Shown one piece after another: positions 1,015-16,572 of a stretch of DNA of 22,407 bases. Below the pieces are notes generated by a model that saw nothing but the letters and a program-made list of their open reading frames with translations, was not told where the DNA came from and ran no database searches. The translations under genes and the position numbers were made by a program. This stretch comes from a virus: positions 1-22,407 of IMG/VR virus record IMGVR_UViG_3300025107_000016, one strand, 5' to 3'. The number at the start of each line of letters is the position of its first letter. The first letter of the stretch is position 1.

Positions 1015-1025
1015 CTAGGCGACTC

Positions 1026-1598
1026 CTAATTCATCAGCACAGTGGTATGTGCGGGTTTGAGCTTATTTAGGCGGCATTGGAGTTCGGACGAATGCCAAGA
1101 TCTCAGTGGGCTATTGCATGGATCACCGCAGCGCATCTCATAGACAGTCAAGGTATTATCTACATTGACGCGCCATACAAAACGCCATTCTTCGCCGTAC
1201 ACGGCACTACCGCACGGATCGCCGCAGCTCATCGGGCGGAATTCGGTGATTGAGGCGCTGGCATAGCCTAGGTTGGCAGCCATATCGAGATAGAACTGAC
1301 GGCTCTGACCGCGCACCTTGCGCAGTTTTTCCAGCACGCGTGCGCGACGCTGTGAGACTGTCACTAGCGCAGTGCCCGCACAACTATCCGGCAGGCCAAG
1401 CACTCGCTCCCAGTCAGCCAACAGCTCGCTGGTCAAACGTGGGTCGGATTCATCTATCAAACGGTCAGCTGATACCTGCGCGGTATCCAGCGCAGCGCCA
1501 TCAGCTGACAATTCAACAGACACCACTGGCGCATTCGGGTCATAAGCGAGCGGTGGAAGCAAGCGTTTGAGTAGATCGGCAGAGATCATCGCGCTCAT
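1026..1598 (-). CDS. Baseplate protein gp48-like (YmfQ/DUF2313 family)
   Basis: A 190-residue protein of the DUF2313/YmfQ family, the Mu gp48 homologue, thought to help attach tail fibres to the baseplate. Family features visible are the N-terminal LLKRLLPPLAYDP, the ADRLIDESDPRLTSELLADWERVLGLP stretch and the RVLEKLRKVRGQSRQFYLDMAANLGY segment. The C-terminal half carries two copies of a Cys-Gly-Asp-Pro-Cys motif about 30 residues apart. The start overlaps the gp47 stop as ATGA, indicating translational coupling, and the fibre gene follows after 11 nt. Length is normal for the family. Confidence 0.9.
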   Translation of the reverse strand: MSAMISADLLKRLLPPLAYDPNAPVVSVELSADGAALDTAQVSADRLIDESDPRLTSELLADWERVLGLPDSCAGTALVTVSQRRARVLEKLRKVRGQSRQFYLDMAANLGYASASITEFRPMSCGDPCGSAVYGEEWRFVWRVNVDNTLTVYEMRCGDPCNSPLRSWHSSELQCRLNKLKPAHTTVLMN

Positions 1599-2650
1599 GT
1601 CAGTGTCACCGTTCCCAGTATGGCAAGCTCGCTGTGCGTCGCATCAACCAGCGCAACGACATTGGCGGCAGGGACGGTCAAATTGACATCCACCACGCCA
1701 GTTACACCCATCATCAGACTCACAAGACGCGCACGCGGAACAGGATCACCTACGTGAAGAGTGGCAAACCATGCCGCCATCAACGAATTAATACGCGCAG
1801 TGGCATCTACCAAGGTCGTGCCAGACAGCGTTAAACTCGCTGCAACATCAACGGTTATTAACGTCGGAGCCATCACCAGTAGATCAACACAAGGTGGAGA
1901 TTGCTTAGTAAGATAGCTCGTCACATCTGCGATTAATTGAGCAGACGGCAAACCGCCTGCCGCCTCAATTACTACATCCACAGCATTGATTGCACGGCGT
2001 TGCGCAAACACATAGGCATCCGTCACACCTGGAACTTCCATCGCCCAGGAAAAATAATCATGCTGTGCCCCACCCATCGGCGGCATGCGCATGTCATACA
2101 ACACACGCGTCAACAAATCGGCATCGCTCTCTGCATCAGCGCCGCCGGTCATGCTGAGGATACTGGCTGCCGATTGCACACCGGTAGGCGACGCGCTCAA
2201 AGTCAGCGCGGCAGCAGCCAGCTGATTTCCAGACAATCCAGCCACCGATGCCTGGGCGGCAATATCTACCGTGCCGCCCACACCGATCACACCCGCCGCA
2301 CTGGTGAGATACGCCACACCGCTGGTCGTCTTAGCTTCAGTTCCGATTGCGATCGCACTACTGGCCACGCCGGAAAACCGAATCGTGCCCGTGGCCACAG
2401 CAGCCGATTTACGAGCGATGTTTCGCAGGCTGGCATGGCGTTCGAGGTAATCGCTATCCGCCGTATCCGGAAAGAGCTGACGGACGACCCATTGCTGATG
2501 CTGATACAAGCCTTCGACGGCTGAGGCGGTGGCGTTTGCGCGCATGGCAAAATCCGAATCATCGCCCACATAGGCATCAGGCCGCTGGTTAGCGATGTCG
2601 CGCAAAATATTGGTGCGAATCTGGCGGTAATCTGGTGTGGTAAAAGGCAC
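1595..2650 (-). CDS. Baseplate J-like protein (Mu gp47)
   Basis: A 351-residue protein of the baseplate J/gp47 family, a wedge component of contractile-tail baseplates. Family signatures are the N-terminal MPFTTPDYRQIRTNILRDI, the Ala/Gly-rich domain with TGTIRFSG and the GGADAESDADLLTRVLYDMRMPPMGGAQHDY stretch (about residues 169-199). That last motif is highly typical of gp47. The start is a GTG at 2650 with GGAG 9 nt upstream, one base after the gp46 stop. Its stop overlaps the gp48 start. No oddities are seen, and length matches Mu gp47. Confidence 0.93.
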   Translation of the reverse strand: MPFTTPDYRQIRTNILRDIANQRPDAYVGDDSDFAMRANATASAVEGLYQHQQWVVRQLFPDTADSDYLERHASLRNIARKSAAVATGTIRFSGVASSAIAIGTEAKTTSGVAYLTSAAGVIGVGGTVDIAAQASVAGLSGNQLAAAALTLSASPTGVQSAASILSMTGGADAESDADLLTRVLYDMRMPPMGGAQHDYFSWAMEVPGVTDAYVFAQRRAINAVDVVIEAAGGLPSAQLIADVTSYLTKQSPPCVDLLVMAPTLITVDVAASLTLSGTTLVDATARINSLMAAWFATLHVGDPVPRARLVSLMMGVTGVVDVNLTVPAANVVALVDATHSELAILGTVTLT

Positions 2651-2651
2651 G

Positions 2652-3020
2652 TTAAATCACTCCGACAGGGTGTTGAAAAGTTAACGTCTGGCCATTCGCC
2701 GCCAGCGCCTTGATCAACAGATTAAGACGGCCTGCAGCACGCTCGGTGGATACGGTGATACTGGTAGCGCGACCATCAGCGACACAGGGCGCCAGCGCAG
2801 CTTCAGCATATTGTTTGGCGAGGATAGCGACCCGCGCGACATCCTTCTCGCGCTTCAACTCATGAAGGCGACTGCCGATGGTTTTTTCCGCCCAGTAACT
2901 ACCCAGCGGAATAGACAGACGCAGGTAGCACGCATTGGCCAGGCCGCCTGCCGGATCACGCTCGGCAGCGCCTTGCAACAGCACATAGTCTTTACTTGTC
3001 GGGTCTATCAAGGTATCCAT
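2652..3020 (-). CDS. Baseplate protein gp46-like
   Basis: A 122-residue protein of the phage GP46 family (Mu gp46 type; similar in role to the T4 gp25-type wedge protein). It has the family-like opening MDTLIDPTSKDYVL, a central IPLGSYWAEKTIGSRLHELKREK segment and a C-terminal beta-rich part ending QTLTFQHPVGVI. It lies between gp45 and gp47 as in Mu. There is no Shine-Dalgarno sequence upstream of the ATG at 3020. Instead the 79-nt gap to gp45 holds two inverted repeats (see 3022-3071), so its translation or expression may be controlled differently from that of its neighbours. Confidence 0.87.
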   Translation of the reverse strand: MDTLIDPTSKDYVLLQGAAERDPAGGLANACYLRLSIPLGSYWAEKTIGSRLHELKREKDVARVAILAKQYAEAALAPCVADGRATSITVSTERAAGRLNLLIKALAANGQTLTFQHPVGVI

Positions 3021-3021
3021 G

Positions 3022-3071
3022 CCGCGAGGTTACGCGCGCGCGGATGGTCAGTTAAGACGGAACAGGTTCCG
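3022..3071. promoter_or_regulatory. Paired inverted repeats upstream of gp46, with palindrome CGGAACAGGTTCCG
   Basis: Two inverted repeats lie in the 79-nt gap. The proximal one, CCGCG...CGCGG (3022-3026 and 3039-3043), sits 2 nt before the gp46 ATG. The distal one is CGGAACAGGTTCCG at 3058-3071, preceded by GTTAAGA at 3051-3057. The 21-nt block 3051-3071 recurs at 14819-14839 with one mismatch. The dyad centre has only 2 nt, so a DNA-binding dimer site is as likely as an RNA hairpin. Function unknown. Confidence 0.5.
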
Positions 3072-3099
3072 CCATTCAAACATTGCGGGTTTTGATGGA

Positions 3100-3657
3100 T
3101 TACATCTGCTGAGTCGGCGGGCTGACGCTGCCGCCTTGAGGGTCGTTTTGCGTATGGCCGTTGTAGGTGGTGCGCATCCCGGCCATGCTCTTGTTGCCGT
3201 GGTCGCTAATATCAGCCTGAGCAACAATGCTGCCCGCCACGTTAAGATCGCCGCTCATGTTAACAGTCGGCGTGGTGATATCCACAGCCAGCGCCGATAC
3301 CACCTTCATGCGCCGATCTTTCGACAGGATAACGTGATCACCCCATTGGTTATAGATCGCCGCCTCGCCACTGGCCAGCCCCTTGAGGCGTAGCGTGCCG
3401 TGCTCGGTAGCGATGACGATGCCGTGTGCAGTCTGACCACCGACCGGCAAGATGATCGCCATCGTGCCGGCAGGCGGATTGCTGGTAAAACCAAACTGCT
3501 GAAATAACTCGGCATCCTGCAACTGCTCGCCACTCATACCATCCAGCTGTACCAACTGCACCGCGCTGGCAGATTTCACCAGTGTCAGCACCCCCCTAAA
3601 GGTGAGGCGGATGCCGCTTAAGGCGCGGCGAATACGGGCATCTATCGTCTTGATCAT
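3100..3657 (-). CDS. Baseplate spike protein (Mu gp45-like)
   Basis: A 185-residue homologue of the Mu central spike protein gp45, a trimer that pierces the outer membrane. An OB-fold-like N-terminal part (about residues 20-100, LVQLDGMSGEQL...FGFTSNPPAGTMAIILPVGG) is typical. It is followed by a beta-helix-like region (TPTVNMSGDLNVAGSIVAQADISDHG) and a tip YNGHTQNDPQGG. In Mu gp45 a His-X-His at the tip binds iron in the trimer. Here the second His is Gln (HTQ), which may alter metal binding. The start overlaps the gp44 stop as ATGA. The C-terminus PPTQQM is usual for this group as I remember it. Confidence 0.9.
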   Translation of the reverse strand: MIKTIDARIRRALSGIRLTFRGVLTLVKSASAVQLVQLDGMSGEQLQDAELFQQFGFTSNPPAGTMAIILPVGGQTAHGIVIATEHGTLRLKGLASGEAAIYNQWGDHVILSKDRRMKVVSALAVDITTPTVNMSGDLNVAGSIVAQADISDHGNKSMAGMRTTYNGHTQNDPQGGSVSPPTQQM

Positions 3658-4772
3658 GTTGCGCTTGGAAAAACTTGGATTTGCGCAGGCGCACTGTTTT
3701 TACCGCGCCGGTGCTTACGTTTGTGCGGATGCGCATCCAGCGCCCAGACGCCATCTTCCTTGAGCGTCAGCGTGGTACGCGTGCCGTCGCTACGTGAGCG
3801 GGTGAACTTACGCGCCATCAGGAAATAAATATCAGCTACTCCGTGCGGTTCTGAAACGACATAGATACGCTGGCCGGGGGTCCACAACAGGCCAACTCCT
3901 ACGCCATCGGTGCTACCGATGCGATGGCCCTGAACCGTAGCCGTCAGCGTCAGCCCCTTCAGACGACTATCCGAGATCAGCTTGCGTGCGCGCTTGCGGC
4001 AGATGTCGGTATTATCAGCTTCGTGGTCGCTGACAATCTTCGGACGATACCAGCTGATGCCGATATCTTTTTCAGAGGCGCGCAGCGCGTGTTTTCCCGG
4101 CTCAGTTTCCGTACCGTGTGCCTGGCCAAGCACCGTCACCTGCGAATAACGCTCGGCAACCGAATCAGTCTTGTCCAGGCTGATTACGTTGTTGCCTTGG
4201 CCATCCCGGCGTAGCACCAGCGTGGCCACCACAGGCAGGCTGTAGTCAGGCCCTCCGACCACCAGCGTGCCGTCAGGCTCGAACCACGGCCACAGGCCAT
4301 TGGCTTCGGCAGCATGCGAAAGCACATCCCATGCGCTGTCGCCAGGCTCGATGTTGATTTTTTCGCGCGTACTGGTCGCTTCAGCATCGATGCGGATTTT
4401 AGTGATGCCCATCGGGCGAACCACCTTGGCGATGATCTCATCCAGACTGGCCATGCGCGCGGTAAAGATCGGCGCGGAACAGTCCAGCAGCACGGCAGCA
4501 CCATCGCGACCTGACAGCGTCAGGGTATGCGACGCTTTACTAACCTGATGGCTGACCTCATCGATGCGCCCGGTCATCACCGTATCGCCGCCGACCTTGA
4601 CCACCACCGGCGCACCGGCAACCACGTCGGGCGGCATCTGCCCGCCAGACATCCCGAGCGTGACATGCCATGCATCGGCGGGGGTGAGCAGATCAGAATC
4701 GACTTCATAGCTGGACCAGTCGCCGTGCGCTTTTCCGCCGATCAACAGTTCGACATTATCAATCGCAGGCAT
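3654..4772 (-). CDS. Baseplate hub protein (Mu gp44, P-like)
   Basis: Homologue of Mu gp44 (gpP), the trimeric hub like T4 gp27, which joins the spike to the tail tube. From the ATG at 4772 the protein is 372 residues and begins MPAIDNVELLIGGKAHGDWSSYEVDSDLLTPADAWHVTL in pieces typical of the family. Later segments IDEVSHQVSKASHTLTLSGRD and AERYSQVTVLGQAHG fit too. An upstream ATG at 4820 is in frame but would add 16 atypical residues encoded inside the preceding small gene, so I prefer 4772. No clear Shine-Dalgarno site is present, but the gene overlaps the upstream small gene by 14 nt and may be coupled to it. The C-terminus is Lys/Arg/His-rich (HKRKHRRGKNS). Confidence 0.9.
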   Translation of the reverse strand: MPAIDNVELLIGGKAHGDWSSYEVDSDLLTPADAWHVTLGMSGGQMPPDVVAGAPVVVKVGGDTVMTGRIDEVSHQVSKASHTLTLSGRDGAAVLLDCSAPIFTARMASLDEIIAKVVRPMGITKIRIDAEATSTREKINIEPGDSAWDVLSHAAEANGLWPWFEPDGTLVVGGPDYSLPVVATLVLRRDGQGNNVISLDKTDSVAERYSQVTVLGQAHGTETEPGKHALRASEKDIGISWYRPKIVSDHEADNTDICRKRARKLISDSRLKGLTLTATVQGHRIGSTDGVGVGLLWTPGQRIYVVSEPHGVADIYFLMARKFTRSRSDGTRTTLTLKEDGVWALDAHPHKRKHRRGKNSAPAQIQVFPSAT

Positions 4773-4920
4773 GGTCAATGACTTTAATGATGACGGGTTG
4801 ATTCGGAATAAGCCACTCAACAGCCTTCATTCCAACCATAACCAGCGCACCGATCAGGATGATAGACGCCAGTCTTAATGTCAGATTCAGAACAGGATGT
4901 GCCTTGATTTTATTTAGCAT
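4759..4920 (-). CDS. Small single-pass membrane protein, unknown function
   Basis: A 53-residue frame from ATG 4920 (an alternative ATG in frame is at 4932). It has a basic N-terminus (MLNKIKAHP), one clear hydrophobic helix at about residues 13-33 (LRLASIILIGALVMVGMKAV) and a short C-terminal tail with one Cys (VIDHACD). The charge bias predicts N-terminus in the cytoplasm and C-terminus in the periplasm. It starts 1 nt after the stop of the upstream small membrane gene and overlaps gp44 by 14 nt, so it is embedded in the operon. I do not recognise a family. Phage Mu has no genes here between 43 and 44. A role in exclusion of other phages, or in the envelope, is possible but unproven. Confidence 0.6.
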   Translation of the reverse strand: MLNKIKAHPVLNLTLRLASIILIGALVMVGMKAVEWLIPNQPVIIKVIDHACD

Positions 4921-4921
4921 A

Positions 4922-5131
4922 TTACTCTGCATCTCTAGCAGAACTGTCAGTCTTGCGTTCATTGAGCCAGGTGCGGTACTCCATAAAAACCTTCCACCCG
5001 CCAAACGAATTCAACAAAGCATGCTGCGCCCGATTACTCAAAAGAGAAACCCAAATTGCGGTCGCAGCTATAGCGCCGCCCGCAGCCAAACACATAATGA
5101 TGTAACCAATACACATTGCCACTATATTCAT
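4922..5131 (-). CDS. Small membrane protein with SFGGWKVFMEYRTWL tail, unknown function
   Basis: A 69-residue frame from the ATG at 5131, which has AGGT 6 nt upstream; in-frame ATGs at 5146 and 5152 would overlap the gp43 stop. A hydrophobic segment spans about residues 3-30 (IVAMCIGYIIMCLAAGGAIAATAIWVSLL in part). After it comes a basic, aromatic cytosolic-type tail with NSFGGWKVFMEYRTWLNERK. The positive-inside rule puts the C-terminus in the cytoplasm, the opposite of its downstream partner. The spacing to gp43 (4 nt) and to the next small gene (1 nt) argues for a real, co-translated gene. I cannot assign a function. Confidence 0.62.
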   Translation of the reverse strand: MNIVAMCIGYIIMCLAAGGAIAATAIWVSLLSNRAQHALLNSFGGWKVFMEYRTWLNERKTDSSARDAE

Positions 5132-5135
5132 TGAA

Positions 5136-6383
5136 TTACCTGGCATAGCCACTCACCACCTCTCCTTGACGCACGAACGGGCTGCGTGCGCCATTCAGAC
5201 GATACAGCTCAGTCGCCCGCGTGTGATCGCCGTACCACAGATGCGCCAGCAGGCGGAAATTGCCATCTGCCTCTGCTGTGCGCTGTATAAGTGGCGGACG
5301 CGTGACAATGATCGCCCGCGCCGCCTCCTGAACCGCCAACCCTTGGTCTTTCAGCGGTTCTGTTATCGTGCGCCCCTGCTCAACGCCATAGATCGCCCGT
5401 ACCTGCACGATGGCAGCCTCGATCGCAGTGCGTGCCGTATTAGCGATCGCTTCGATCTGCACTGGTGAGAGGGTGGGCGTGGCTGCCTCGACCGCCAACA
5501 ACACGCCAGCTGCATCGGCCAACCCTGATGCGGTATTGACCTGCATCGTCGCGGCCGCAGCGGCGATGCCTTGCGCCTCGCTCGGTGTGTTGCTGTAGGA
5601 AATAGGGGCAGGCACAACTGAAGAGGGAGTGCTGAAGATAGAAAAGGCGTTCAGATCGCTTTGAATGCTCGCCCAGTCGGCCACCAGCTGATCACCAAAC
5701 TGTCGCACATCGAGGATGCCGCCAACCAGTGCGGAAATATCATTTCCCCAGGCGCGAGGGTAAGCCAGCACATCCAGACCAGAGAGCACCACACCCGCCT
5801 GCTTACTGATCGCCAGCAACGGCCCGGTCAGTGCGGTGCGCAAGGCATCCAGTGCAGCCAATGGATTGCGCATCCGATCCACCACAGCCCCCATGTTTTC
5901 GGTGGCGGCCGCTGTGGCAGCCGTGCCGTGCTGAGCAATAGCCTCAGCCTTTTGCACAGCCAGCTCGCGAATAAAGAAAGGGGCAGCAGGGGTGGATTCA
6001 ACAAACTCGATCTCGACCTGAGCCTCGTCAACGGCCTCAGCATCATGTGCGATGCGATAGGTCGCCACCTGGCAGAACATCATCCCGAAAACAGGATGCT
6101 GCAACCAGCCGCCGAGGGGCGAGGTCTCATCCGGTATCGCATCAATCTTTACACCGTCCAGTGCGGCGATAAAGGTTTGCAATCGGCTTTCATAATCGAT
6201 GCCGTAGAACACGGCGCGAATAGACACATGCCGCGCCTGTGTGCCCATATCCTCGACATCGGCACCGGCGACATAAGGGTAATCGTGTTCGACCAGTGCG
6301 TGCTGAACCGCATCGCTAGTGCCGACGCAATCAAACGTCACACCGCGAAAGGTCGCATCAAGTAGGGTATCGTTCCAGGCCAT
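5136..6383 (-). CDS. DNA circularisation / tail protein N (Mu gp43-like)
   Basis: A 415-residue member of the DNA_circ_N family (Mu gpN, gp43). In Mu this protein is injected or needed for circularisation and is also a tail/baseplate part lying between tape measure and hub. The N-terminal about 90 residues are diagnostic (MAWNDTLLDATFRGVTFDCV, then HDYPYVAGADVEDMG and VFYGIDYESRLQTFIAALD). The middle is Ala-rich and helical. The C-terminus (LLAHLWYGDHTRATELYRLNG...GEVVSGYA) resembles a LysM-like tail-protein tail seen in this family. No Shine-Dalgarno site precedes the ATG; inverted repeats do (6384-6450). Length is slightly below Mu gp43. Confidence 0.9.
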   Translation of the reverse strand: MAWNDTLLDATFRGVTFDCVGTSDAVQHALVEHDYPYVAGADVEDMGTQARHVSIRAVFYGIDYESRLQTFIAALDGVKIDAIPDETSPLGGWLQHPVFGMMFCQVATYRIAHDAEAVDEAQVEIEFVESTPAAPFFIRELAVQKAEAIAQHGTAATAAATENMGAVVDRMRNPLAALDALRTALTGPLLAISKQAGVVLSGLDVLAYPRAWGNDISALVGGILDVRQFGDQLVADWASIQSDLNAFSIFSTPSSVVPAPISYSNTPSEAQGIAAAAATMQVNTASGLADAAGVLLAVEAATPTLSPVQIEAIANTARTAIEAAIVQVRAIYGVEQGRTITEPLKDQGLAVQEAARAIIVTRPPLIQRTAEADGNFRLLAHLWYGDHTRATELYRLNGARSPFVRQGEVVSGYAR

Positions 6384-6450
6384 GCGCGCAGCTTACGCGC
6401 AAGGGGGAAGCGCTTCCGCTAGGAAGATGTTCCGTAGCTGCTAACTACGG
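6384..6450. promoter_or_regulatory. Cluster of four inverted repeats between tape measure and gp43
   Basis: The 57-nt gap and the tape-measure stop hold GCGCG/CGCGC (6384-6388 and 6396-6400) directly before the gp43 ATG, the perfect 12-nt palindrome GGAAGCGCTTCC (6406-6417), GGAA-GATG-TTCC (6422-6433) and CCGTAG/CTACGG (6432-6437 and 6445-6450). The last has the tape-measure stop codon in its loop. No T-run follows any of them, so a standard rho-independent terminator is unlikely. The arrangement resembles that before gp46. Confidence 0.5.
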
Positions 6451-8198
6451 CGTGCAGTCCGATCAATCTTGCCGGTGACAACCTGGGTGATCTTTTCACC
6501 ATCCAGATGCAGATTGATTTCAAGCGCCTGTTGCGCTTCTTTGTTACCAAGCCACGAAAGCATCGTTGCAATTGTCCCGCCCAATGTTTCCTGAGCATCA
6601 GACCCCTCAAATCCAGCCTTGTTTATCAAGGTACCAGCGCCATAACCAAGTGCACCTGCTGCGGTCACCATTGCGAGAGATGCCGCCATCGCACCGGTAC
6701 CTAATGCAGCAATCTCCGGAAGAGTGGAGTAAGCAATCCATTTTGCGCCAGTTGCAACAGTTTTTAATAAACCCGGTGCCGCAGCTGCAGCCGCAGTTGA
6801 TGCGGCTACATCGGCAGTTATACTTGCCGCACTACTGCCAGCCATTTGCGCAAAGTTAGTCACATAAACCGGAGTTATACCAGCCGCAGCTTCGAGTGCT
6901 TTACCCGTTGCCACGCCTGCGCCCACACTGCCGAATTTACCCGCGATAGCCTTGATGCCCATACTGCCATAACGCGCCGCAGCGAGCGTGCCCAGCACTG
7001 CACCTGTGCCGCCCAGCAACATATCCTTGCCACTCATACCAAGGCCGCCGTTTTCCTTTTTATCCATAGACCAGCGAATGGTATTGGATAAAGTCTCATT
7101 GATTGGCTTGGAAAAATCATCCGCCGCTTGCCTGAGCGCAGCACCAAGCCGACCTGTCTGAGATACAGAATTATCCAACGCATCCTGGAGGTCTTTTTTT
7201 AGTGTGCCACTAGCCCCCTCGATCGTTTTTCCAAACTGTCTGGACTTAACCAGCATGTCGCCAGATAGCAGGGTACGCATACCCTTGATCGTATCGAGAT
7301 CGGCTTTACCAAATGCAGCTGACATAAAGGCGTCTCGCCCTTGGTCGGTTTTAAGTTTATCGTATTGAGTCTTAATGTCCTGCAATACCTCAGCTGCTGC
7401 GCGTCGCGTGCCGTCTTTGTTGAAAAACTGCACGCCGGTGGCTTGGCTTGCCGACTTGCGATAGTTGGCATTATTGAATAAACGCAGCGTGCTATCTGCC
7501 AGTGTGGCCAGCCGTTCAGGCTGGCGCTCTACCAGGGATAATGTCTCCGTGAAAGCCAGCGTCTGATCGAAGTTCATCCCGGCCGCTTTCGCATTCACAC
7601 CGATACGCGAGAAAACATCAGACAACCCCTCCAGCTCTGCATTGCCGAGCCTGCCAGCGACGGTCATTTTATCCAGCAATTTCAGCGCCAGACCCGGCTT
7701 GGAAAGATCAAAATCAAATGCCTGACCAGCCACACTCAGCGCACCAGATAAAGTGTCAGCTTGCGACCCGGTAACAGCCATCGCAATGTTGATATCTTTA
7801 ATGGTGGAGCGAGCGGCGTCCCAAGACATACCGGACTGGATGAGATTATTGAAACCTTGCTGAAGATCTTCGACAGGCTTGCCGGTTTCCTGCGCCATCT
7901 TAAAAAGCTCGGCGCGCAATGCAGCAACCTGCGCTTTACTGGCACCCGCTGTCTGGCCGATCTGTATCAGGGATTGATCCAGCTTTGCTGCTTTGATGAC
8001 TTGCTGAGCAACGGAAAGACTCACGCCGATGCTCGCCAGCTTTCCGGATAGGCTATTGAAACTAGACTTTAACGAGTCGAACTCATTACGCGCGAAATTT
8101 CCGAAGCGTTTTACCGACCCGCTTGCTTGCGTCAGGCCATTTTTAAGGCCAGAGCTATTGGCAATTAGCCGCAATGCAAGGGTAAGATCATTTGCCAT
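6441..8198 (-). CDS. Tail tape measure protein (Mu gp42-like)
   Basis: A 585-residue tape measure protein that sets tail length and is probably ejected ahead of DNA. About residues 60-330 match the TP901-type tape-measure core in style (AKLDQSLIQIGQTAGASKAQV, LQQGFNNLIQSGMSW, GRLGNAELEGLSDVFSRIGVNAKAAGMNFDQTLAFTETLSL). About residues 390-550 form an Ala/Gly-rich hydrophobic region expected of the membrane-entering part. Using the usual 0.15 nm per residue gives a tail near 85-90 nm. The ATG at 8198 has only a weak purine-rich site but lies within the end of the chaperone's frameshift reading frame, so initiation may be coupled to it. Confidence 0.93.
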   Translation of the reverse strand: MANDLTLALRLIANSSGLKNGLTQASGSVKRFGNFARNEFDSLKSSFNSLSGKLASIGVSLSVAQQVIKAAKLDQSLIQIGQTAGASKAQVAALRAELFKMAQETGKPVEDLQQGFNNLIQSGMSWDAARSTIKDINIAMAVTGSQADTLSGALSVAGQAFDFDLSKPGLALKLLDKMTVAGRLGNAELEGLSDVFSRIGVNAKAAGMNFDQTLAFTETLSLVERQPERLATLADSTLRLFNNANYRKSASQATGVQFFNKDGTRRAAAEVLQDIKTQYDKLKTDQGRDAFMSAAFGKADLDTIKGMRTLLSGDMLVKSRQFGKTIEGASGTLKKDLQDALDNSVSQTGRLGAALRQAADDFSKPINETLSNTIRWSMDKKENGGLGMSGKDMLLGGTGAVLGTLAAARYGSMGIKAIAGKFGSVGAGVATGKALEAAAGITPVYVTNFAQMAGSSAASITADVAASTAAAAAAPGLLKTVATGAKWIAYSTLPEIAALGTGAMAASLAMVTAAGALGYGAGTLINKAGFEGSDAQETLGGTIATMLSWLGNKEAQQALEINLHLDGEKITQVVTGKIDRTARRS

Positions 8199-8675
8199 TT
8201 TTTCTTGTACTCACAAATCGTTGTTTTGTGCCATCACGGCGTGCCGACTTTTTACCGGTCGCTTCACAAATAAGGTCGAGATAAGCAACCACCTCGACCT
8301 CAGACATTTCCAGTACATCCGACCTGCTAAAGCCATGCTTGACAAGTGCAAGCGTTGCTAGCCGATAGGGGTTAAGCTGGCCTTCGGCGGCTGAAACTTT
8401 TTTTCCAGATTCTCCTGCACCACCTGTATTGCTGCCAGATCAACATCGAACAGCTCCGCCAGCAATGCCGCCGTGATCTGCTCTTTAGGAATATCGCCCA
8501 GCTCAACAAGCTGCTTTGCCAAAACAGCAATGTAAAACTTCAAGCCGCTATCACTTTCTACCTCGGCAATCGCATCAAGCGTATCGCGTACTTTTGCGGG
8601 GCGAATCTTGAAGCGGGAATGCCTTTTCCCAGCAAACTCCAGCCCGATCGGCAGGACGCCATCAGCCGTGATCAT
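8188..8675 (-). CDS. Tail assembly chaperone, -1 frameshift product (gp41 plus T-like extension)
   Basis: Reading gp41 from 8675 to the slippery heptamer A AAA AAG (8403-8397) and then slipping to the -1 frame gives an open frame ending with TGA at 8190-8188, 162 residues in all. The extension begins VSAAEGQLNPYRLATLALVK and includes HGFSRSDVLEMSEVEVVAYLDL. It has no start codon of its own, fills the otherwise empty 159 nt before the tape measure, and overlaps the tape-measure start by 11 nt. This is the layout of lambda G/GT-type tail chaperones, in which a minority longer product bridges tube and tape measure. Mu itself is reported to use a frameshift here (of a different size, as I recall). 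The frame is seen directly; efficiency is unknown. Confidence 0.82.
8358..8675 (-). CDS. Tail assembly chaperone (Mu gp41-like), unshifted product
   Basis: A 105-residue Mu-like gp41/TAC protein starting at the ATG at 8675, whose ATGA overlaps the tube stop. An upstream in-frame ATG at 8696 would add seven residues (MPARGGG) inside the tube gene and is less likely. Family features are LPIGLEFAGKRHSRFKIRPAKVRDTLDAI near the N-terminus and the acidic helical middle (LVELGDIPKEQITAALLAELFDVDLAAIQ). Normal translation ends at TAG 8360-8358 after ASLTPIG. It is the more abundant of two products if frameshifting occurs at 8403-8397. Confidence 0.88.
   Translation of the reverse strand: MITADGVLPIGLEFAGKRHSRFKIRPAKVRDTLDAIAEVESDSGLKFYIAVLAKQLVELGDIPKEQITAALLAELFDVDLAAIQVVQENLEKKFQPPKASLTPIG
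8397..8403 (-). promoter_or_regulatory. Ribosomal frameshift site A AAA AAG
   Basis: In the gp41 frame the minus strand reads GAA AAA AAG TTT, giving the heptamer A AAA AAG in the correct phase for -1 slippage. This is the heptamer used in E. coli dnaX. The -1 frame stays open from here for 69 codons. Upstream, the minus strand carries no perfect Shine-Dalgarno stimulator that I can be sure of, and I did not find a strong downstream stem by eye. Confidence 0.75.
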
Positions 8676-9046
8676 TCCACCACCTCGCGCAGGCAAGCCA
8701 TGCTCAAATCACGCTTGGCTTCGTTGTCAGTGCTGTATTTTTCGCCCACGTCTAGGGTAAAGCAATCCAGATAGCTGGTTCGCTTACCGCCCGCAACGGT
8801 AGGGAATATCGTCAGCTTCGCACCCTCAATGGCTGCCCAGTCAATATCACCAGTCACGGGAATGACTACCGATACCTTGAGGTCGATTTCCTCGACACCC
8901 TTGGAGAAACCTGCTGCTCGACCTGTTCTATTCATGGTCTTGACCAGCTTGCGGCCTGTTTTCTTGGTCACGTCAAGGCTTTCTACTTCCACCTCAACTG
9001 TGTTTACTTCCAGCACAATCGCACCGAGATACTCTTTTAAAGCCAT
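8672..9046 (-). CDS. Tail tube protein (Mu gp40, M-like)
   Basis: A 124-residue Mu-type tail tube protein, polymerising as hexamers inside the sheath. Family features are MALKEYLGAIVLEVNTVEVEV, KKTGRKLVKTMNRTGRAAGFSKGVEEIDLKVSVVIP and GDIDWAAIEGAKLTIFP. Shine-Dalgarno AGGAGA lies 7 nt before the ATG at 9046. It follows the sheath as in Mu, and its TGA overlaps the chaperone ATG. Length is as expected (Mu M is about 118 residues). Confidence 0.93.
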   Translation of the reverse strand: MALKEYLGAIVLEVNTVEVEVESLDVTKKTGRKLVKTMNRTGRAAGFSKGVEEIDLKVSVVIPVTGDIDWAAIEGAKLTIFPTVAGGKRTSYLDCFTLDVGEKYSTDNEAKRDLSMACLREVVE

Positions 9047-11376: not shown

Positions 11377-11799
11377 CTAGCCTCGTGCTGCGCGATCAAA
11401 CACGCGGCCTGTCGGTGTTGCGAATTGCACCGTATTGGTTGGTTGAGCAACATGGTTAGCTGCATCCATACCTAACCCGATTTCGCCCCTGGCGATCTTT
11501 TCCAGAAACTTAATTGCATCCTTGTAGCGATTACGCACCTCATCAGTCTCAGAGACACCCGCGCCACATAAACGGTAGCGTGCGATATCACAGGCAAAAC
11601 CGCTGAGTATCCGGGGCGTACTGGCCAGCGGCAAGACATGTCGCGGAGCAAGGTACGGATCAATCTCGGCGTCGGCCTCAGCCAACGCGTCAGTCAACAC
11701 CAATCCATCAATCACACCTGATCTGGCACGGTCTGTCAGCGCCAGCACTTCGTCCTCGCCGAAGCGTGCGATCATATTGGCCTGGGTGGCGTAAGACAT
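11377..11799 (-). CDS. gp36-like head-tail connector protein (DUF1320)
   Basis: A 140-residue DUF1320 protein (Mu gp36). The start MSYATQANMIARFGEDEVLALTDR and the middle DALAEADAEIDPYLAPRHVLPL are diagnostic, as is the ACDIARYRLCG segment. These proteins are head-completion adaptors that join the portal to the tail, like gp6/gp15 adaptors of other phages. The ATG at 11799 overlaps the last base of the gp35 stop (TAATG), so translation is coupled. Confidence 0.9.
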   Translation of the reverse strand: MSYATQANMIARFGEDEVLALTDRARSGVIDGLVLTDALAEADAEIDPYLAPRHVLPLASTPRILSGFACDIARYRLCGAGVSETDEVRNRYKDAIKFLEKIARGEIGLGMDAANHVAQPTNTVQFATPTGRVFDRAARG

Positions 11800-12032
11800 T
11801 ACTCAGCTGCCTTTCCGGCACCGGAGTCTTGCGCATCGGCGGGGGCATCGGTTTCCACTTCGCTGACGACCAGCATGGCTTCATTCTTGAGCAGCTTGAT
11901 CTCATCCCGGCTCAGCTCGGATACCGGGATCACCGTTGCCTCGCGACCAAATGCACGACCTGCGCGACGAAAACCTTCGCGACTGGATACGATACTGAGT
12001 GCTTTTACTTTTTTTACTTTGGCTTCGGCCAT
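11799..12032 (-). CDS. gp35-like small protein (FluMu N-terminal domain type)
   Basis: A 77-residue protein with the FluMu/Mu gp35-type motif SSREGFRRAGRAFGREATVIPVSELSRDEIKLLK. The C-terminus is acidic and Ala-rich (TDAPADAQDSGAGKAAE). It lies directly after the major capsid gene, as in Mu. A perfect TAGGAGATAGAC site precedes the ATG at 12032, identical to that of the decoration-like gene at 13592. The role is not established beyond head assembly. Confidence 0.88.
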   Translation of the reverse strand: MAEAKVKKVKALSIVSSREGFRRAGRAFGREATVIPVSELSRDEIKLLKNEAMLVVSEVETDAPADAQDSGAGKAAE

Positions 12033-12055
12033 GTCTATCTCCTAATCAATTTGTT

Positions 12056-12085
12056 ACCCCCGCCGCAGATGGGCGGCGCGGGGGT
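12056..12085 (-). other. Strong GC-rich stem-loop after the major capsid gene
   Basis: ACCCCCGCCGC and GCGGCGCGGGGGT pair over about 11 bp with a 2-nt bulge and a 6-nt loop in the 79-nt gap between capsid and gp35. No U-run follows; AACAAATTGATT comes next, then the gp35 ribosome site. It could block 3'-5' exonucleases, giving a high capsid mRNA level, or partly attenuate transcription into the connector genes. This is inference from structure and place. Confidence 0.55.
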
Positions 12086-12111
12086 TAGCGTACTACTCTC
12101 GGGGGGTATTC

Positions 12112-13149
12112 TTATGCAACGGTGCCGTCAGAGCCGAAAGCCAACTGCCAGAAGCCGTAGCCACCCGCAGCACGCGCTTCCGCGCCGAACTTGAACTTCT
12201 TGCGGCTGAAAACATCGTCCGCTTGCGGGTCGGTCTGCTCGACGAATACCGGCGCCTTGCGCTCCTGGTAGATGAACGGCTTGACCGGCTGTGACATATC
12301 CAGCAGGAACCAGGCGGTATCCGAAGTCAGGCGCGCATCCACCACCACCTCGAACGTGCCGCGATAGGGGTTGGTATCGTTCACGGCAAGGAACTCGCTA
12401 TTGCGCAGCTTGAGAGCGGTCGTTTCCAGCGCAGGCGGTACCAGCAACACATTCGGCGTGATGTTCAGCGGGCGACCTTCGTCATCTTTGAACTTGCGCA
12501 TCGCCAGACGCGCGGCGCCGAAGCTGGCCTCGGCCGCAGCACTGGATGCGGCGCTCAACACTTTGGTGCCCTTGTTCGATACTGAAACACCACTGACGGG
12601 GTGATCGGTATCGATGAAGAACTGACCATCGAAACACAGCGAGGCAAAGCTGGCATTAACCAATTCCATGACGATCTCATCCGGCAACTGCTTGGCTGAG
12701 AAGCCTGCCATCTGCGCCTGAGGTGCGTAGATGCCGAGCTGATCATCCTCGATGTCGTTACGATCAACCTCGACCGTCGCCTCGAAGTCGCGGTTGGGGA
12801 TACTGTACTTGAAGGCTTCCAGCGACTTGACGTTCTTATCACCCACCCAGGCACGCATCTTGGGGAATTTTGACAACCAGGCATAGTCGTTCTGCGTGGT
12901 GGTCGAGGTGATCTTCATCGCGATTCTTTCCCAAACACTAGGGGCAGCGTCGAAGGCGTTGTTGAAGGTGGTCTTCAGGCTGATGAAGACATTGGACAGG
13001 TTTTGTTTATTGATGAGCATGCCGCCCATCGCAAAGCCGATGCCGCCATCAGCGAACAGGTCAGTGTGAACAGGTGCGCCGAATGCCAGCGAAGCAAAAG
13101 CCAGTGCGACTAAGCCAGCCAACCATGCCAAAGATTTAAAAGATTTCAT
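12112..13149 (-). CDS. Major capsid protein (Mu gp34, T-like) with signal-like N-terminal leader
   Basis: A 345-residue Mu T-type major head subunit. The core from about residue 44 is diagnostic: MLINKQNLSNVFISLKTTFNNAFD, TTTQNDYAWLSKFPKMRAWVGDK, EVDRNDIEDDQLGIYAPQAQ, and DTDHPVSG further on. Mu-like capsids normally start at the equivalent of M44 (base 13020). Here the only strong ribosome site (AGGAGA, 7 nt spacing) is upstream of 13149, and no good site precedes M41 or M44. The 43 added residues start MKSFKSLAWLAGLVALAFAS, a basic end plus hydrophobic core (about 8-24) with possible A-F-A cleavage sites, like a Sec signal peptide. They may be removed as a propeptide. Confidence 0.94.
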   Translation of the reverse strand: MKSFKSLAWLAGLVALAFASLAFGAPVHTDLFADGGIGFAMGGMLINKQNLSNVFISLKTTFNNAFDAAPSVWERIAMKITSTTTQNDYAWLSKFPKMRAWVGDKNVKSLEAFKYSIPNRDFEATVEVDRNDIEDDQLGIYAPQAQMAGFSAKQLPDEIVMELVNASFASLCFDGQFFIDTDHPVSGVSVSNKGTKVLSAASSAAAEASFGAARLAMRKFKDDEGRPLNITPNVLLVPPALETTALKLRNSEFLAVNDTNPYRGTFEVVVDARLTSDTAWFLLDMSQPVKPFIYQERKAPVFVEQTDPQADDVFSRKKFKFGAEARAAGGYGFWQLAFGSDGTVA

Positions 13150-13187
13150 GTGTGTATCTCCTGATTATTGAATTGATTGTGTGGCGC

Positions 13188-13592
13188 TTACAGTACCCAG
13201 ACGCCGTCTGCTTCCACGCCCAGCACGATGCCTGCTGCCGAACGGGTTGCCCCGCCATTGGTCAGCGCGACTGTCTGATCGTCTGCGATGTAGCAAGCCT
13301 TGCCCAGACTTGCCTGGACAACAGGATCAGCGGCGAGGTTGGCAAACTTGAATGCCTCACCACGGCGCACCATCACAGATTTGGCACTGGCCGCACCGCC
13401 GGTATTATCGATTTGCTCTTCGGCGCGACCCAGATAGGTCAGGGTGGTAGCAGCAGCACCCGGCGTAGCCAAGCCTGCTGCGTTGGCCGCAACCAGTGAA
13501 CCGGCAAAGATCTTGACGTTCGCTGCAAGCGGAACAGAAATCAGCAGCGGGTTTTTAAAATGGGTATTGCGATCAGCCGTAAGTGCAGCCAT
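13188..13592 (-). CDS. Capsid decoration / cement-like protein
   Basis: A 134-residue protein between protease/scaffold and capsid genes. The sequence has a decoration-protein look: MAALTADRNTHFKNPLLISVPL, AANVKIFAGSLVAANAAGLATPG and AAGIVLGVEADGVWVL, similar in style to DUF2190-type cement proteins with a small beta-barrel. Such proteins bind the outside of expanded capsids and stabilise them. The ATG at 13592 has the same TAGGAGATAGAC leader as gp35. The call is by style and position; I cannot check a family match. Confidence 0.7.
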   Translation of the reverse strand: MAALTADRNTHFKNPLLISVPLAANVKIFAGSLVAANAAGLATPGAAATTLTYLGRAEEQIDNTGGAASAKSVMVRRGEAFKFANLAADPVVQASLGKACYIADDQTVALTNGGATRSAAGIVLGVEADGVWVL

Positions 13593-13620
13593 GTCTATCT
13601 CCTAAGTGGTATGTAGTGGG

Positions 13621-14193
13621 TTAAACCGCTTGCAAAGCCTTGGTTTTCTGAAAATCTTCCGGTGACACGCCCATGCTGCGGCACATCGCCAGCTCGGCAT
13701 CATCCAGCGCACCAGGCGCAGCGCCTTCCGGTGCTTTGCCGCCAGTCTGCATGCCGGTCAACGCAGCGACCTGCGTGGCGGTATCCAGATATTGATTCAG
13801 CGCATCGAGGTCTTTACTACCCAGATCACGCGCCCACTTCTCCTGAGGTGGCAGCAGCTTGCCAGCGGATAAGGCGGTAACCACCACGGCATCCACGTCG
13901 CGAGTAACCTTCTCGCCACGCAGTGCGGCCAGTTCGGTTTGCAATGCCTGCATCGCATCTACCGGAACATACTTGGCAGGATCAGGCACCGCACCCTTGA
14001 GCGCAGCAATCTGTACGTCTTTGTCAGCCAGTAGCCCTGTGATACTGAAGCTTGCGGCAGCTGTAGCCACTGGCTCACTGGTCTTGATCAGATCAACCGC
14101 CTTTTGCAGCTCGATGGCGACCTGCTCGGGGGTGGTTAAAGTAGGCAAATTGAGCAAATAGCGCAGACGCTCCAACAATTCTTCCATGTCCAT
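13621..14193 (-). CDS. Scaffold protein Z from an internal start in the protease gene
   Basis: Inside the protease gene a strong ribosome site (AGGAGAG, 7 nt before ATG) precedes the in-frame ATG at 14193, giving a 190-residue product starting MDMEELLERLRYLLNLPTL. It is mostly helical with acidic and Gln/Ala-rich stretches (AVVVTALSAGKLLPPQEKWARDL, DDAELAMCRSMGVSPEDFQKT). In Mu the scaffold Z is made in the same way from the 3' end of gene I. The ribosome site is better than that of the full-length protein, which fits a scaffold made in excess over protease. Confidence 0.8.
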   Translation of the reverse strand: MDMEELLERLRYLLNLPTLTTPEQVAIELQKAVDLIKTSEPVATAAASFSITGLLADKDVQIAALKGAVPDPAKYVPVDAMQALQTELAALRGEKVTRDVDAVVVTALSAGKLLPPQEKWARDLGSKDLDALNQYLDTATQVAALTGMQTGGKAPEGAAPGALDDAELAMCRSMGVSPEDFQKTKALQAV

Positions 14194-14796
14194 AGTGAGA
14201 CTCTCCTGTGTTGTTGTTTCTGGGTTAAGGGAATAACTGGCAGCGGCACGGCTCAGCACATCGTCCATGCCGTCGATACAGGCGTAATTGGTGAGTGCGG
14301 CTGAATGGATGCCGCGAACGCGACCTGTACCGGCTTCGTACAGAATCACGGGGGAAATGTATTTGTATTCTTCGCCGTCAATGAAGGCTTGTGCGTTAGC
14401 TGTCCAGCGCACCTTGGCGAACAATCCTTCGCCTTCAGACCAGCGCAATGCCGCGCCTGAGAACCAGCCTGCCGCAGGGGCTGGCTGACCATTTTTCTCA
14501 GTCAACAGGGTTTGATGCTCGTAATCAATCACGAAATCATTTTCGCGCGCCGAGCAAAAGGCGATTACCTCGGCTGCAGCCCGGGCATCCATTACCCAGT
14601 TTTTCGCATCTTTCGGGCGACCGTCAATGCCGCGAAAAGCGCCCGCCGGGGTGAGCTGGATTTCGCCGTCGTCATTCATCACCACCGAACAGGCGGCGAT
14701 GCCGAAACCGAGAGCAGGCTTTTTGGGTTTTGATTTGGCTTGCGCCGAAACTCTGTCCTGCTTCTGAGAGGGTGAGGTCGTTTTCATGGTTGCCAT
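13621..14796 (-). CDS. Prohead protease I (Mu gp32-like), with scaffold domain
   Basis: A 391-residue Mu I-type prohead protease fused in frame to its scaffold. The N-terminal half carries family features: GFGIAACSVVMNDDGEIQLTPAGAFRGIDGRP, the DYEHQT motif (residues 91-96), AAGWFSGAALRWSEGEGLFAKVRWT and EYKYISPVILYE, ending near ALTNYACIDGM. The C-terminal half (from about residue 202) is a helical scaffold-like region. The ATG at 14796 has no Shine-Dalgarno site and lies inside a perfect inverted repeat (14788-14806); the second ATG at 14787 is an alternative start. The accessory gene at 14885-15805 separates it from gp31. Confidence 0.9.
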   Translation of the reverse strand: MATMKTTSPSQKQDRVSAQAKSKPKKPALGFGIAACSVVMNDDGEIQLTPAGAFRGIDGRPKDAKNWVMDARAAAEVIAFCSARENDFVIDYEHQTLLTEKNGQPAPAAGWFSGAALRWSEGEGLFAKVRWTANAQAFIDGEEYKYISPVILYEAGTGRVRGIHSAALTNYACIDGMDDVLSRAAASYSLNPETTTQESLTMDMEELLERLRYLLNLPTLTTPEQVAIELQKAVDLIKTSEPVATAAASFSITGLLADKDVQIAALKGAVPDPAKYVPVDAMQALQTELAALRGEKVTRDVDAVVVTALSAGKLLPPQEKWARDLGSKDLDALNQYLDTATQVAALTGMQTGGKAPEGAAPGALDDAELAMCRSMGVSPEDFQKTKALQAV

Positions 14797-14806
14797 TGTG
14801 GCAACC
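14788..14806. promoter_or_regulatory. 8-bp inverted repeat over the protease start codon
   Basis: GGTTGCCA and TGGCAACC are perfect 8-nt arms around a 3-nt loop. The protease ATG (14796-14794) straddles arm and loop. In mRNA this would form a stable hairpin hiding the start codon; in DNA it could be an operator. It would be expected to keep protease synthesis low compared with scaffold Z. Confidence 0.55.
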
Positions 14807-14818
14807 GGGGGGAGGGGC

Positions 14819-14839
14819 GTTAAGGCGGAACAGGTTCCG
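14819..14839. repeat. Second copy of the palindromic element CGGAACAGGTTCCG
   Basis: The block at 14819-14839 (GTTAAGG followed by CGGAACAGGTTCCG) differs in one base from 3051-3071. Both copies lie 20-35 nt upstream of a gene lacking a Shine-Dalgarno site and in the same orientation relative to it. In this copy the gap is 88 nt between the accessory gene and the protease gene. Confidence 0.6.
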
Positions 14840-14884
14840 GTGGTGCAGCAGCTATTTGAGGTGCTTTTTTACACTAAACCAAAC

Positions 14885-15805
14885 TCATAAAAGCGGCAAG
14901 CGAATCTGGCGAGCAGCTGGAGTATGCTCAATCACTTCCAGTATGCTGACTTCTTGGCGTAATACACCACCAGCATCTAGATAATGCCTGCGCTTAATCA
15001 AGACACGAAAAATATCATTCTTACCAAAACGCTCTTCATCTTTATCAACCCGACTCAGAAAGACATCATCCAGAATGGCTGCATAAAAAGCTGATGCCCC
15101 ATCCGAAAACCGCCATTTATTATCATCCTTAAAGACGACTGCGACTAATTGCAGACGTTCTTCAGACTCGGTTTCAGAAATAGTTTGTTCAGCAGCTTCC
15201 GGGGCAGCAAACCAAAATGACTCAGTGTGCGTGACAGTCACCTCGATAGCGCTGTCAGTGCCGCTGGCAAACACATCTACGCCATCACGTGCGAGTGGCT
15301 CACGTATTACACCATCCAGTGCGCGGCGCGTTTCAATATCCATCAGCAGCTGCAATACTTGCAGCTCTATTTCAAGCGCATCGTCATCCACATAGAGCGT
15401 TGCACGACTATCTGACTTGACTACCTGAGTTAAGGTGCGACCGCGCAGCCATTTGATTACGCCAATCAGACCATTCTTGGCATCTTTTCCGGAAAGACCG
15501 AGCATCGATAACAAGCCTAATATAGCAACAGCCTCACGGGTATTAAACATATCCACTACGCCACGCACCCAACCTTGCAGCAATACCAGATCAATACCAA
15601 AGCTTCCTGTTTTGAATGAACCCTTGACGCTAACAGACACTTTTGAGTCTGCACCACTCAACACGCGATTCGCGTGTTCAAGCAAGTCACCGATCGCATG
15701 TAGCGCTGGCGCAAGCTGCCTCACCTCCATTTCATGTGAAGTGAGTGCTGGACCGTCATAGGTGATTCGTAATGTGCTCATGTGCGAATTGTAACTCCGA
15801 TTCAT
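14885..15805 (-). CDS. Accessory (moron) protein of unknown function, about 300 aa
   Basis: A 306-residue protein (298 from the ATG at 15781) inserted between gp31 and protease I, where Mu has no gene. The N-terminal part (TLRITYDGPALTSHEMEVRQLAPALHAIGDLLEHANRVLSG) precedes a beta stretch (KVSVSVKGSFKTGSFGIDLVLL) and a Gly-rich hydrophobic helix pair (about 92-120, ending VIKWLRGR) that might touch membrane. A C-terminal beta-rich domain includes NKWRFSDGASAFYAAILDDVFL. The layout resembles widespread uncharacterised prophage proteins I have seen but cannot name. It looks more AT-rich than its neighbours and has a promoter-like sequence of its own. An anti-phage or lysogenic-conversion role is conceivable, not shown. 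Neither candidate start has a good ribosome site. Confidence 0.85.
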   Translation of the reverse strand: MNRSYNSHMSTLRITYDGPALTSHEMEVRQLAPALHAIGDLLEHANRVLSGADSKVSVSVKGSFKTGSFGIDLVLLQGWVRGVVDMFNTREAVAILGLLSMLGLSGKDAKNGLIGVIKWLRGRTLTQVVKSDSRATLYVDDDALEIELQVLQLLMDIETRRALDGVIREPLARDGVDVFASGTDSAIEVTVTHTESFWFAAPEAAEQTISETESEERLQLVAVVFKDDNKWRFSDGASAFYAAILDDVFLSRVDKDEERFGKNDIFRVLIKRRHYLDAGGVLRQEVSILEVIEHTPAARQIRLPLL

Positions 15806-15863
15806 AGCTTAGAGTAGCCATAGACCCCGTTAACTCCCCGTTAAAAACCATTGATTATTATTT

Positions 15864-15893
15864 TTCATACCATCGCCGCACCAGTATGAGCAA
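15864..15893 (-). promoter_or_regulatory. Possible sigma-70-like promoter for the accessory gene
   Basis: On the minus strand TTGCTC (15893-15888), an 18-nt spacer and TATGAA (15869-15864) with an upstream TG (extended -10, TGGTATGAA) point to the accessory gene, whose start is about 60-80 nt downstream. The region around it is AT-rich (AAAAATAATAATC). This would allow expression in the lysogen independently of the late operon. Confidence 0.45.
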
Positions 15894-15927
15894 AACCGCT
15901 TAAATCGCTTCTGAGCGGGTTTCGCTC
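15888..15927. other. Imperfect long inverted repeat upstream of the accessory gene
   Basis: GAGCAAAACCGCT (15888-15900) and AGCGGGTTTCGCTC (15914-15927) pair over about 12 positions with one bulge and one mismatch, enclosing a 13-nt loop. The right edge is followed on the plus strand by a second small stem (CGCG-TAG-CGCG, about 15942) and a T-run at 15956-15960. The arm at 15888-15893 overlaps the putative -35 element, so it might be an operator, or a terminator for gp31 transcription. Confidence 0.4.
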
Positions 15928-15983
15928 AAAACAACGAGCGCGTAGCGCGACTATGTTTTTAGGCGAAGACCCTTGCGATCTTG

Positions 15984-16460
15984 TTATCCAGCGACACGAC
16001 GCAGGTAGTCGCCGACCAGGCCGAGGATGTTTTCCGACGCCTCGGCTTGCAGGTTGCCCTGCGCATCAATCGGCAGGAAGGGACGGGCGGCGATAACTTT
16101 ATTGGGAATCATGCTGCGCGGACTGGTTACCCCACCTAGCTGCTGCATAGCCGCATATTTTTTATTACTGCCGACCGTAGCGCTCATCGCATCATGACTG
16201 GAGCCGATAGAGGATGACAACCCACCGGCGCTGACTTGCAACATCATGCCAGGCCATGTGCCGCGCTTGGTACGCATCGCAATCGTAGAGGGCTTTAACC
16301 CTAGCCACTTCGGACGGCCTTCGGAGGCAAAGTTCTTCTCGGTCTGCCGCTCCAGCTCCTGCGCGATCATGCTCATCACCGGAGACATGTTGTGCGCGGT
16401 AGCGGCCATCCGGTCAAGCATGGACATCACCGCTTTATCGTCTATCTTGATTTCAAACAC
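15984..16460 (-). CDS. Virion morphogenesis protein (Mu gp31, G-like)
   Basis: A 158-residue protein of the phage virion morphogenesis family (Mu G, P2 S type), a tail completion factor. Typical segments are QELERQTEKNFASEGRPKWLGLKPSTIAMR, MLQVSAGGLSSSIGSSHDAMSATVGSNKKYAAMQQLGG and AARPFLPIDAQGNL. Start is GTG at 16460 with AGGGGG 5 nt upstream. A 179-nt gap with a promoter-like sequence and inverted repeats follows. In Mu this gene is directly followed by the protease gene; here the accessory gene intervenes. Confidence 0.9.
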   Translation of the reverse strand: MFEIKIDDKAVMSMLDRMAATAHNMSPVMSMIAQELERQTEKNFASEGRPKWLGLKPSTIAMRTKRGTWPGMMLQVSAGGLSSSIGSSHDAMSATVGSNKKYAAMQQLGGVTSPRSMIPNKVIAARPFLPIDAQGNLQAEASENILGLVGDYLRRVAG

Positions 16461-16476
16461 CGCAACCCCCTATAAT
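16447..16476 (+). promoter_or_regulatory. Possible promoter on the opposite strand, antisense to gp30
   Basis: Plus-strand TTGATT (16447-16452), 18-nt spacer, perfect TATAAT (16471-16476). A transcript from here would run rightward against the 3' end of gp30, first through two stems (ACCTGC-CCA-GCAGGT at 16531-16545 and GGTGA/TCACC at 16549-16566). No plus-strand gene follows. It could be coincidental, since the same bases encode the gp31 ribosome site region. Confidence 0.3.
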
Positions 16477-16572
16477 GCTTGCACGCCCATGATGAAAGCT
16501 GGAAATTAGACGGCGAGCCAGCGGAAGAGTACCTGCCCAGCAGGTGATGGTGAACAGCCGGTCACCCATCAT
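16453..16572 (-). CDS. Candidate 39-aa coupled microprotein between gp30 and gp31
   Basis: The ATG at 16572 overlaps the gp30 stop as ATGA, and the frame runs to TGA at 16455-16453, 8 nt inside gp31, so it exactly fills the 108-nt gap. The product (MMGDRLFTITCWAGTLPLAR then about 19 more residues, ending GGCGV) has two Cys and a basic, partly hydrophobic middle. I recognise no family. Its main use may be translational coupling between gp30 and gp31. The DNA also contains two stems, so a structured leader RNA is the alternative. Confidence 0.4.
   Translation of the reverse strand: MMGDRLFTITCWAGTLPLARRLISSFHHGRASIIGGCGV

Follow-up and report, generated by a model that had tools for sequence, protein, structure and literature searches.

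A signal-peptide-like leader on the major capsid protein of a Mu-like phage and its recurrence among relatives

Background

In tailed phages the capsid proteins are regarded as cytoplasmic, and the known propeptides of major capsid proteins (MCPs) act inside the prohead. An MCP that begins with a hydrophobic leader resembling a signal peptide raises the question of whether the leader is made, whether it is kept among relatives and what it might do. The case analysed here is in the whole 22,407-nt stretch of the viral record IMGVR_UViG_3300025107_000016 (the window), a 22.4-kb fragment of a Mu-like phage with its head genes on the minus strand.

Gene layout, host and capsid core

The MCP gene is located between protease I and the downstream head genes, as in the gpT family (Table 1). 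The TAA of the gene before it is at 13190-13188 and the leader starts 38 nt further on. The order of protease I, structural protein and T is that of D3112.

Table 1. Features around the MCP gene, in window coordinates
Feature	Position	Strand	Remarks
MCP gene, whole	13149 (ATG) to 12112	-	345 aa, open frame
Shine-Dalgarno AGGAGA	13157..13162	-	7-nt spacer to leader ATG; read directly from the sequence
MCP leader, 43 codons	13021..13149	-	MKSFKSLAWLAGLVALAFASLAFGAPVHTDLFADGGIGFAMGG, then core MLINKQNL...
Basic n-region, residues 1-6 (MKSFKS)	13132..13149	-	
Hydrophobic h-region, residues 7-24	13078..13131	-	ends in small-residue -3/-1 site A22-F-G24/A25
Polar acidic linker, residues 25-38	13036..13077	-	
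Junction motif FAMGG, residues 39-43	13021..13035	-	form [ILFV][GA][FMLI][GA]G; presumed removal site G43/M44
Mu gpT-type MCP core (HK97 fold), residues 44-345 and stop	12112..13020	-	PF10124, E 2e-94
Virion structural protein, gene before MCP	13188..13592	-	phrog_1731
Head maturation protease/scaffold I	13621..14796	-	PF10123, E 2e-108; phrog_328; candidate enzyme for a cut at G43/M44

Two parts of the window, 11500-16500 (5 kb around the MCP gene) and 424-9000, are 100% identical to a contig (C6) of a Gallionella metagenome bin; therefore, the host of the phage is probably a Gallionella-like iron oxidiser. The first 1014 positions of the window (minus strand) hold a truncated tail-fibre-like ORF with collagen-like GxxGxx repeats. 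The matching bin contig stops within this region at window position 424, which is probably a limit of the assembly. A 306-aa ORF (14885-15805, minus strand) of phrog_3243, function unassigned, separates the G-like gene from protease I. Only 3 of 131 relatives have it in their flanks, so that it looks recently inserted. A 61-bp element beside it (15921-15981) has no match in Rfam; the Gallionella bin with the same phage has it at three further places, at ~92% identity.

The core of the MCP is an ordinary gpT major capsid protein. The Pfam Mu-like_gpT match begins at residue 52, the protein also belongs to phrog_371 (major head protein), and leaderless relatives align from residue 44, which agrees with the earlier placement of the gpT core at about this residue. 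The best Foldseek matches are the JBD30 procapsid (8rkx) and the Mu capsid (9jod), with a probability of 1.00 and a TM score of only 0.42-0.50 over the query. The core thus resembles gpT of Mu, JBD30 and D3112 in sequence, in the HK97 fold and in the N-arm helix, but the MCPs of these phages begin at the core and that of the window has 43 residues more. AlphaFold2 models the window MCP with a detached helix (residues 3-22), a disordered linker (24-45, pLDDT <50) and the N-arm helix (48-68).

The leader as the translated N-terminus

Relatives were collected from viral contigs, species genomes, phages and plasmids, and the start of each was picked by its codon and ribosome site. A ribosome site is found ahead of the leader start in 83 of the 85 leader genes, compared with 2 of 85 for the core start. 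In 35 of 84 distinct leaders none of the start codons ATG, GTG and TTG is found at the core position; therefore, in those genes the long form is the only product open to standard initiation. An earlier count of internal Shine-Dalgarno sites (0/28) was partly circular, the starts having been picked by ribosome-site strength. This circularity is removed by the leaderless genes, since none of the 193 hides a hydrophobic in-frame stretch upstream. A wrong start call for the leader was rejected on these three observations. The leader start carries the signals for translation, so that the leader is, as encoded, the N-terminus of the MCP. The sequence-only reading, in which AGGAGA with its 7-nt spacer drives translation from 13149, is borne out by both the site and the frame, which is open to 12112.

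Occurrence among relatives

About one distinct relative in three (85 of 280) carries an in-frame leader of 36-56 residues (median 46). Another 193 begin at the core or only a few residues from it and almost none are intermediate, so the lengths are bimodal. A comparison of T-like proteins had been proposed as a check on the leader, and it shows a feature which recurs (85/280) with a shared layout in 84 of 84 distinct leaders and is neither random nor unconserved. The leader is therefore confirmed as a real and family-wide feature. Among isolates, a search with residues 1-100 and a look at individual records found no leader-bearing phage, and no leader of this kind is annotated in D3112, Mu, Mushuvirus, Mx4, a Helicobacter prophage or Thiobacimonas phage P1. 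A link between the leader and the type of tail was rejected, since a sheath gene accompanies 17 of 40 leader phages and 49 of 91 leaderless ones. No leader-specific difference was seen in protease I or in the gene before T, and the C-terminal parts of protease I that were compared look alike in sister phages with and without the leader.

Anatomy of the leader

The leaders share little sequence, but the class of their layout is strictly kept. Residues 1-8 are net positive in all 84 distinct leaders. Acidic residues occupy 2 of 1848 positions in residues 1-22 versus 144 of 2002 from residue 23 on, and K or R is found at 7 of 2842 positions from residue 13 on. A basic n-region followed by an uncharged hydrophobic h-region, as in Sec signals, is thus present in 84/84 leaders and in residues 1-24 of the window MCP. 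The basic end and hydrophobic core (about residues 8-24) of the sequence-only reading hold with little adjustment, the hydrophobic stretch being placed at residues 7-24.

The family also has small residues at -3 and -1, a short way past the h-region. An A-x-A within residues 15-36 occurs in 75 of 84 leaders versus 48.8 +/- 4.2 in shuffles (z 6.3; 0 of 1000 shuffles), in statistics that leave the kinship of the leaders out of account. Among the spacing controls A-xx-A is also raised (z 4.1), AA is weakly raised (2.6) and A-xxx-A is not (-0.7). Proline peaks at -4 and -6 relative to A-x-A. The window itself has only the weaker A-F-G/A, and its sister L110 has V-H-A/E where the aligned window has V-H-T/D. 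Of the A-F-A cleavage motifs proposed for the window, the AFA at residues 17-19 is inside the hydrophobic core, and the best site of the signal-peptidase type is A22-F-G24/A25.

The hydrophobic stretch has no amphipathic face (z 0.21 +/- 0.99 versus 1.87 for the neighbouring N-arm helix), so the protein-binding helix with a packing face that a prohead propeptide would suggest was not found. Its insertion free energy is near zero versus about +10 for the core start, on an approximate scale. A simple signal-peptide rule accepts 42 of 48 leader MCPs, 1 of 108 leaderless MCPs and 6 of 55 host ORFs, most of which look secreted.

Other export signals were rejected. A Tat signal would need a twin arginine (RR), which occurs in 0 of 84 leaders, and the lipobox pattern of a lipoprotein signal is found in 2 of 84 and is absent from the window. 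In a type IV prepilin-like leader the order would differ, since here the hydrophobic segment precedes the G, and +5 is K in 58 of 85 and R in 11 of 85, not E.

The leader has the anatomy of a signal peptide of the Sec/signal peptidase I type, from which targeting and cleavage may be inferred. The alignments show that the n-region, h-region, small-x-small site, acidic linker and phi-[GA]-phi-[GA]-G junction are kept as a layout while the letters drift.

The junction with the core

The motif [ILFV][GA][FMLI][GA]G closes the leader directly before the core, which starts [ML][LI][VI]N, and the G at -1 is present in 81 of 85 leaders. The motif was not found elsewhere in the leader phages, either in protease I (0/80), the structural protein before T (0/84) or the MCP core (0/85). 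Since it ends exactly where leaderless relatives start, a cut at the junction would give back the usual N-terminus. The database record of Mu T gives its start as confirmed by amino-acid sequencing. Because of this record, and because the first residue of leaderless relatives is exactly that of the core, the leader is likely removed from the MCP, with the nearly invariant G43 as a likely second cut site. The conserved G is no more than suggestive of removal by the prohead protease.

Gain and loss of the leader

On a tree of 156 cores, 48 of them with a leader, the leader state changes at least 20 times, with at least 10 changes forced by well-supported branches, versus about 41 with shuffled labels; this is a quick tree with no mixture model. 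Sister phages can differ, as the window and L110 have the leader and L001 does not, and close relatives with and without it share about 89% core identity. Ahead of the leaderless MCP of locus L079 is a 15-codon relic ORF (MKNTICKQWEAAHVD) with its own start, about 37 nt before the MCP start. The relic resembles the first codons of the leader in the neighbouring L038 (MKKTIYKTLAW), as would be expected if a leader had been lost by deletion. Pooled pN/pS is 0.54 for leaders and 0.15 for cores, with pS near saturation, and suggests that constraint on the letters of the leader is relaxed yet present. As reconstructed on the tree, the leader behaves as a presence/absence module that was gained or lost many times.

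Leaders are present in 17 of 80 loci from species genomes. They are found in Nitrosomonadaceae (4/4), Gallionellaceae (2/2), Mariprofundaceae (2/2) and Geobacteraceae (2/3), and in none of the loci from Pseudomonadaceae (0/15), Chromobacteriaceae and Neisseriaceae (0/10) or Enterobacteriaceae (0/3). These counts, uncorrected for phage kinship, are suggestive of a link between leader and host.

Possible function

The favoured explanation, although held tentatively and with a little less than an even chance, is that the leader is a removable sequence for membrane targeting. It would take the MCP to the inner membrane while the chain is nascent, and its removal would come either ahead of prohead maturation or at that step. 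The hydrophobic segment would bring the nascent chain to the Sec/SRP machinery or to the membrane itself, and the MCP would accumulate there, possibly where proheads start. Removal could be by signal peptidase I at the small-x-small site, by protease I of the phage at G43/M44, or by both. The N-terminus would then be that encoded directly by leaderless relatives. Membrane targeting seems to fit the signal-peptide anatomy best, and a purely protein-binding propeptide fits it less well. The letters drift, the layout and the small-x-small site stay, and no matching change was seen in the protease; this suggests that the receptor is a generic one, either the membrane or the Sec machinery, and not a specific phage partner. 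A membrane step in head assembly has precedent, because the proheads of T4 and SPN3US are bound to the inner membrane and freed by proteolysis (PMC9026906). The sequence-only reading, which offered a propeptide cut by protease I, a membrane tether or a captured signal sequence, is thus partly supported. A removable leader is supported indirectly by the junction G (81/85), the core start and the Mu T start. A one-off capture is not supported, because the leader is a recurrent family module conserved as a signal-peptide class.

Several observations count against membrane targeting. The shell protein has to finish in the cytoplasm, and with an efficient Sec signal it would be exported. The leader is also dispensable in evolution, being absent from sister phages. 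The main difficulty is the place of the N-arm, which is a helix in the JBD30 procapsid (PMC11445458) and lies in the interior of published procapsids (PMC12749128). If the leader were still attached once the shell had closed, it would point into the shell and away from the membrane. It would either be removed before closure or act as an interior propeptide. In this main rival, the leader is similar to a short HK97 delta-domain or T4 gp23 propeptide, helping assembly with scaffold Z inside the prohead until protease I cuts at G43/M44, and its likeness to a signal peptide is incidental. Its N-terminal place and size are as in known MCP propeptides (65 aa in T4 gp23, 102 aa in HK97), the interior position of N-arm helices would suit it, the junction motif is strongly conserved, and the Mu protease I probably trims the portal C-terminus too (PMC11915804). 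However, the leader helix is without an amphipathic face, and the charge layout, A-x-A and proline positions need no such partner. The junction motif is missing from protease I, from the MCP core and from the gene preceding T, and the C-terminal parts of protease I look alike in the sisters compared, with and without the leader. An interior propeptide is possible but rather unlikely.

True export, in which part of the MCP crosses the membrane and is processed on the periplasmic side for some other purpose (a decoy or an exclusion factor, for example) and capsids form from chains which escape or slip back, would account for the signal-peptide features including the -3/-1 site. It is improbable, since the core keeps the constraint of a capsid protein and a periplasmic capsid protein is without known benefit. 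A separate leaderless form to supply the shell is also unlikely, because 35/84 cores are without a start codon and a ribosome site is at the core in only 2/85. A folding or timing device has an equally small chance. Here the leader would slow folding and engage SecB, trigger factor or other chaperones, so that the MCP is assembly-incompetent until clipped and the membrane is not needed; this would explain conservation of the class without a phage partner, the patchy presence and the host-linked distribution, but by itself does not call for an A-x-A cleavage site. The faster evolution of the leader than of the core, and its frequent absence, might suggest a tolerated fusion of upstream sequence to the MCP, or a miscalled start, with no function at all. 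That is very improbable given the same architecture in 84/84 leaders across phages of several bacterial phyla, the pooled pN/pS of the leaders despite the near saturation of pS, the ribosome sites at the leader start and the many cores without a start codon.

If membrane targeting is extended to the family, a widespread Mu-like branch would carry a removable signal peptide on each MCP subunit, build its proheads on the membrane, free them by proteolysis and swap the tag by host. This wider picture is speculative and its chance is clearly the smaller.

Comparison with known systems

The delta domain of HK97 and D3 and the propeptide of T4 gp23 are, like the leader, N-terminal MCP extensions, and like them the leader is probably removed in head maturation. 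These extensions have about 65-113 residues, and those of HK97 and D3 are protein-binding scaffold domains. Unlike them, the leader forms a hydrophobic, non-amphipathic helix, its layout is that of a signal peptide, and no phage partner was detected. It shares with Sec/signal peptidase I signal peptides the n-h-c layout, the small residues at -3/-1, proline at -4/-6 and relaxed letters, but it is on a capsid protein with a cytoplasmic job, and an acidic linker comes after it, with a second conserved motif where the core begins. The membrane contact of T4 is the portal gp20 with YidC and not the MCP, whereas here the MCP itself would carry the tag. Searches of the open-access literature turned up no account of a signal peptide on a Mu-like MCP. 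An N-terminal MCP extension with signal-peptide anatomy therefore appears to be new, with no close precedent in that literature.

A recurrent leader on each of the ~400 MCP copies per head (the number for JBD30) would be a new control of where and when the shell is built. This can be put to a direct test, since some phages have the leader and close relatives of theirs lack it. Strain designations are available for several hosts whose prophages carry the leader (in Nitrosomonas, Mariprofundus, Geomonas and Herbaspirillum), and candidate leader-bearing lysogens are Nitrosomonas communis Nm44, Geomonas limicola Red745 and Mariprofundus ferrooxydans PV-1. In automatic annotation, leader MCPs may be called secreted or have their start codon trimmed.

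Two Salinibacter phage records have 'sig_peptide' features that cover the whole CDS of gpT or of the protease (L196 3872-4879; L197 107-1378). The feature on gpT was rejected as a case of the leader since it takes in all of the CDS and the start of the protein is not hydrophobic; it looks like an annotation artefact. Among the proteins listed for the exoproteome of Tistlia consotensis are a gpT and a Mu-like prophage I protein for which a Sec signal is predicted (PMC4545795).
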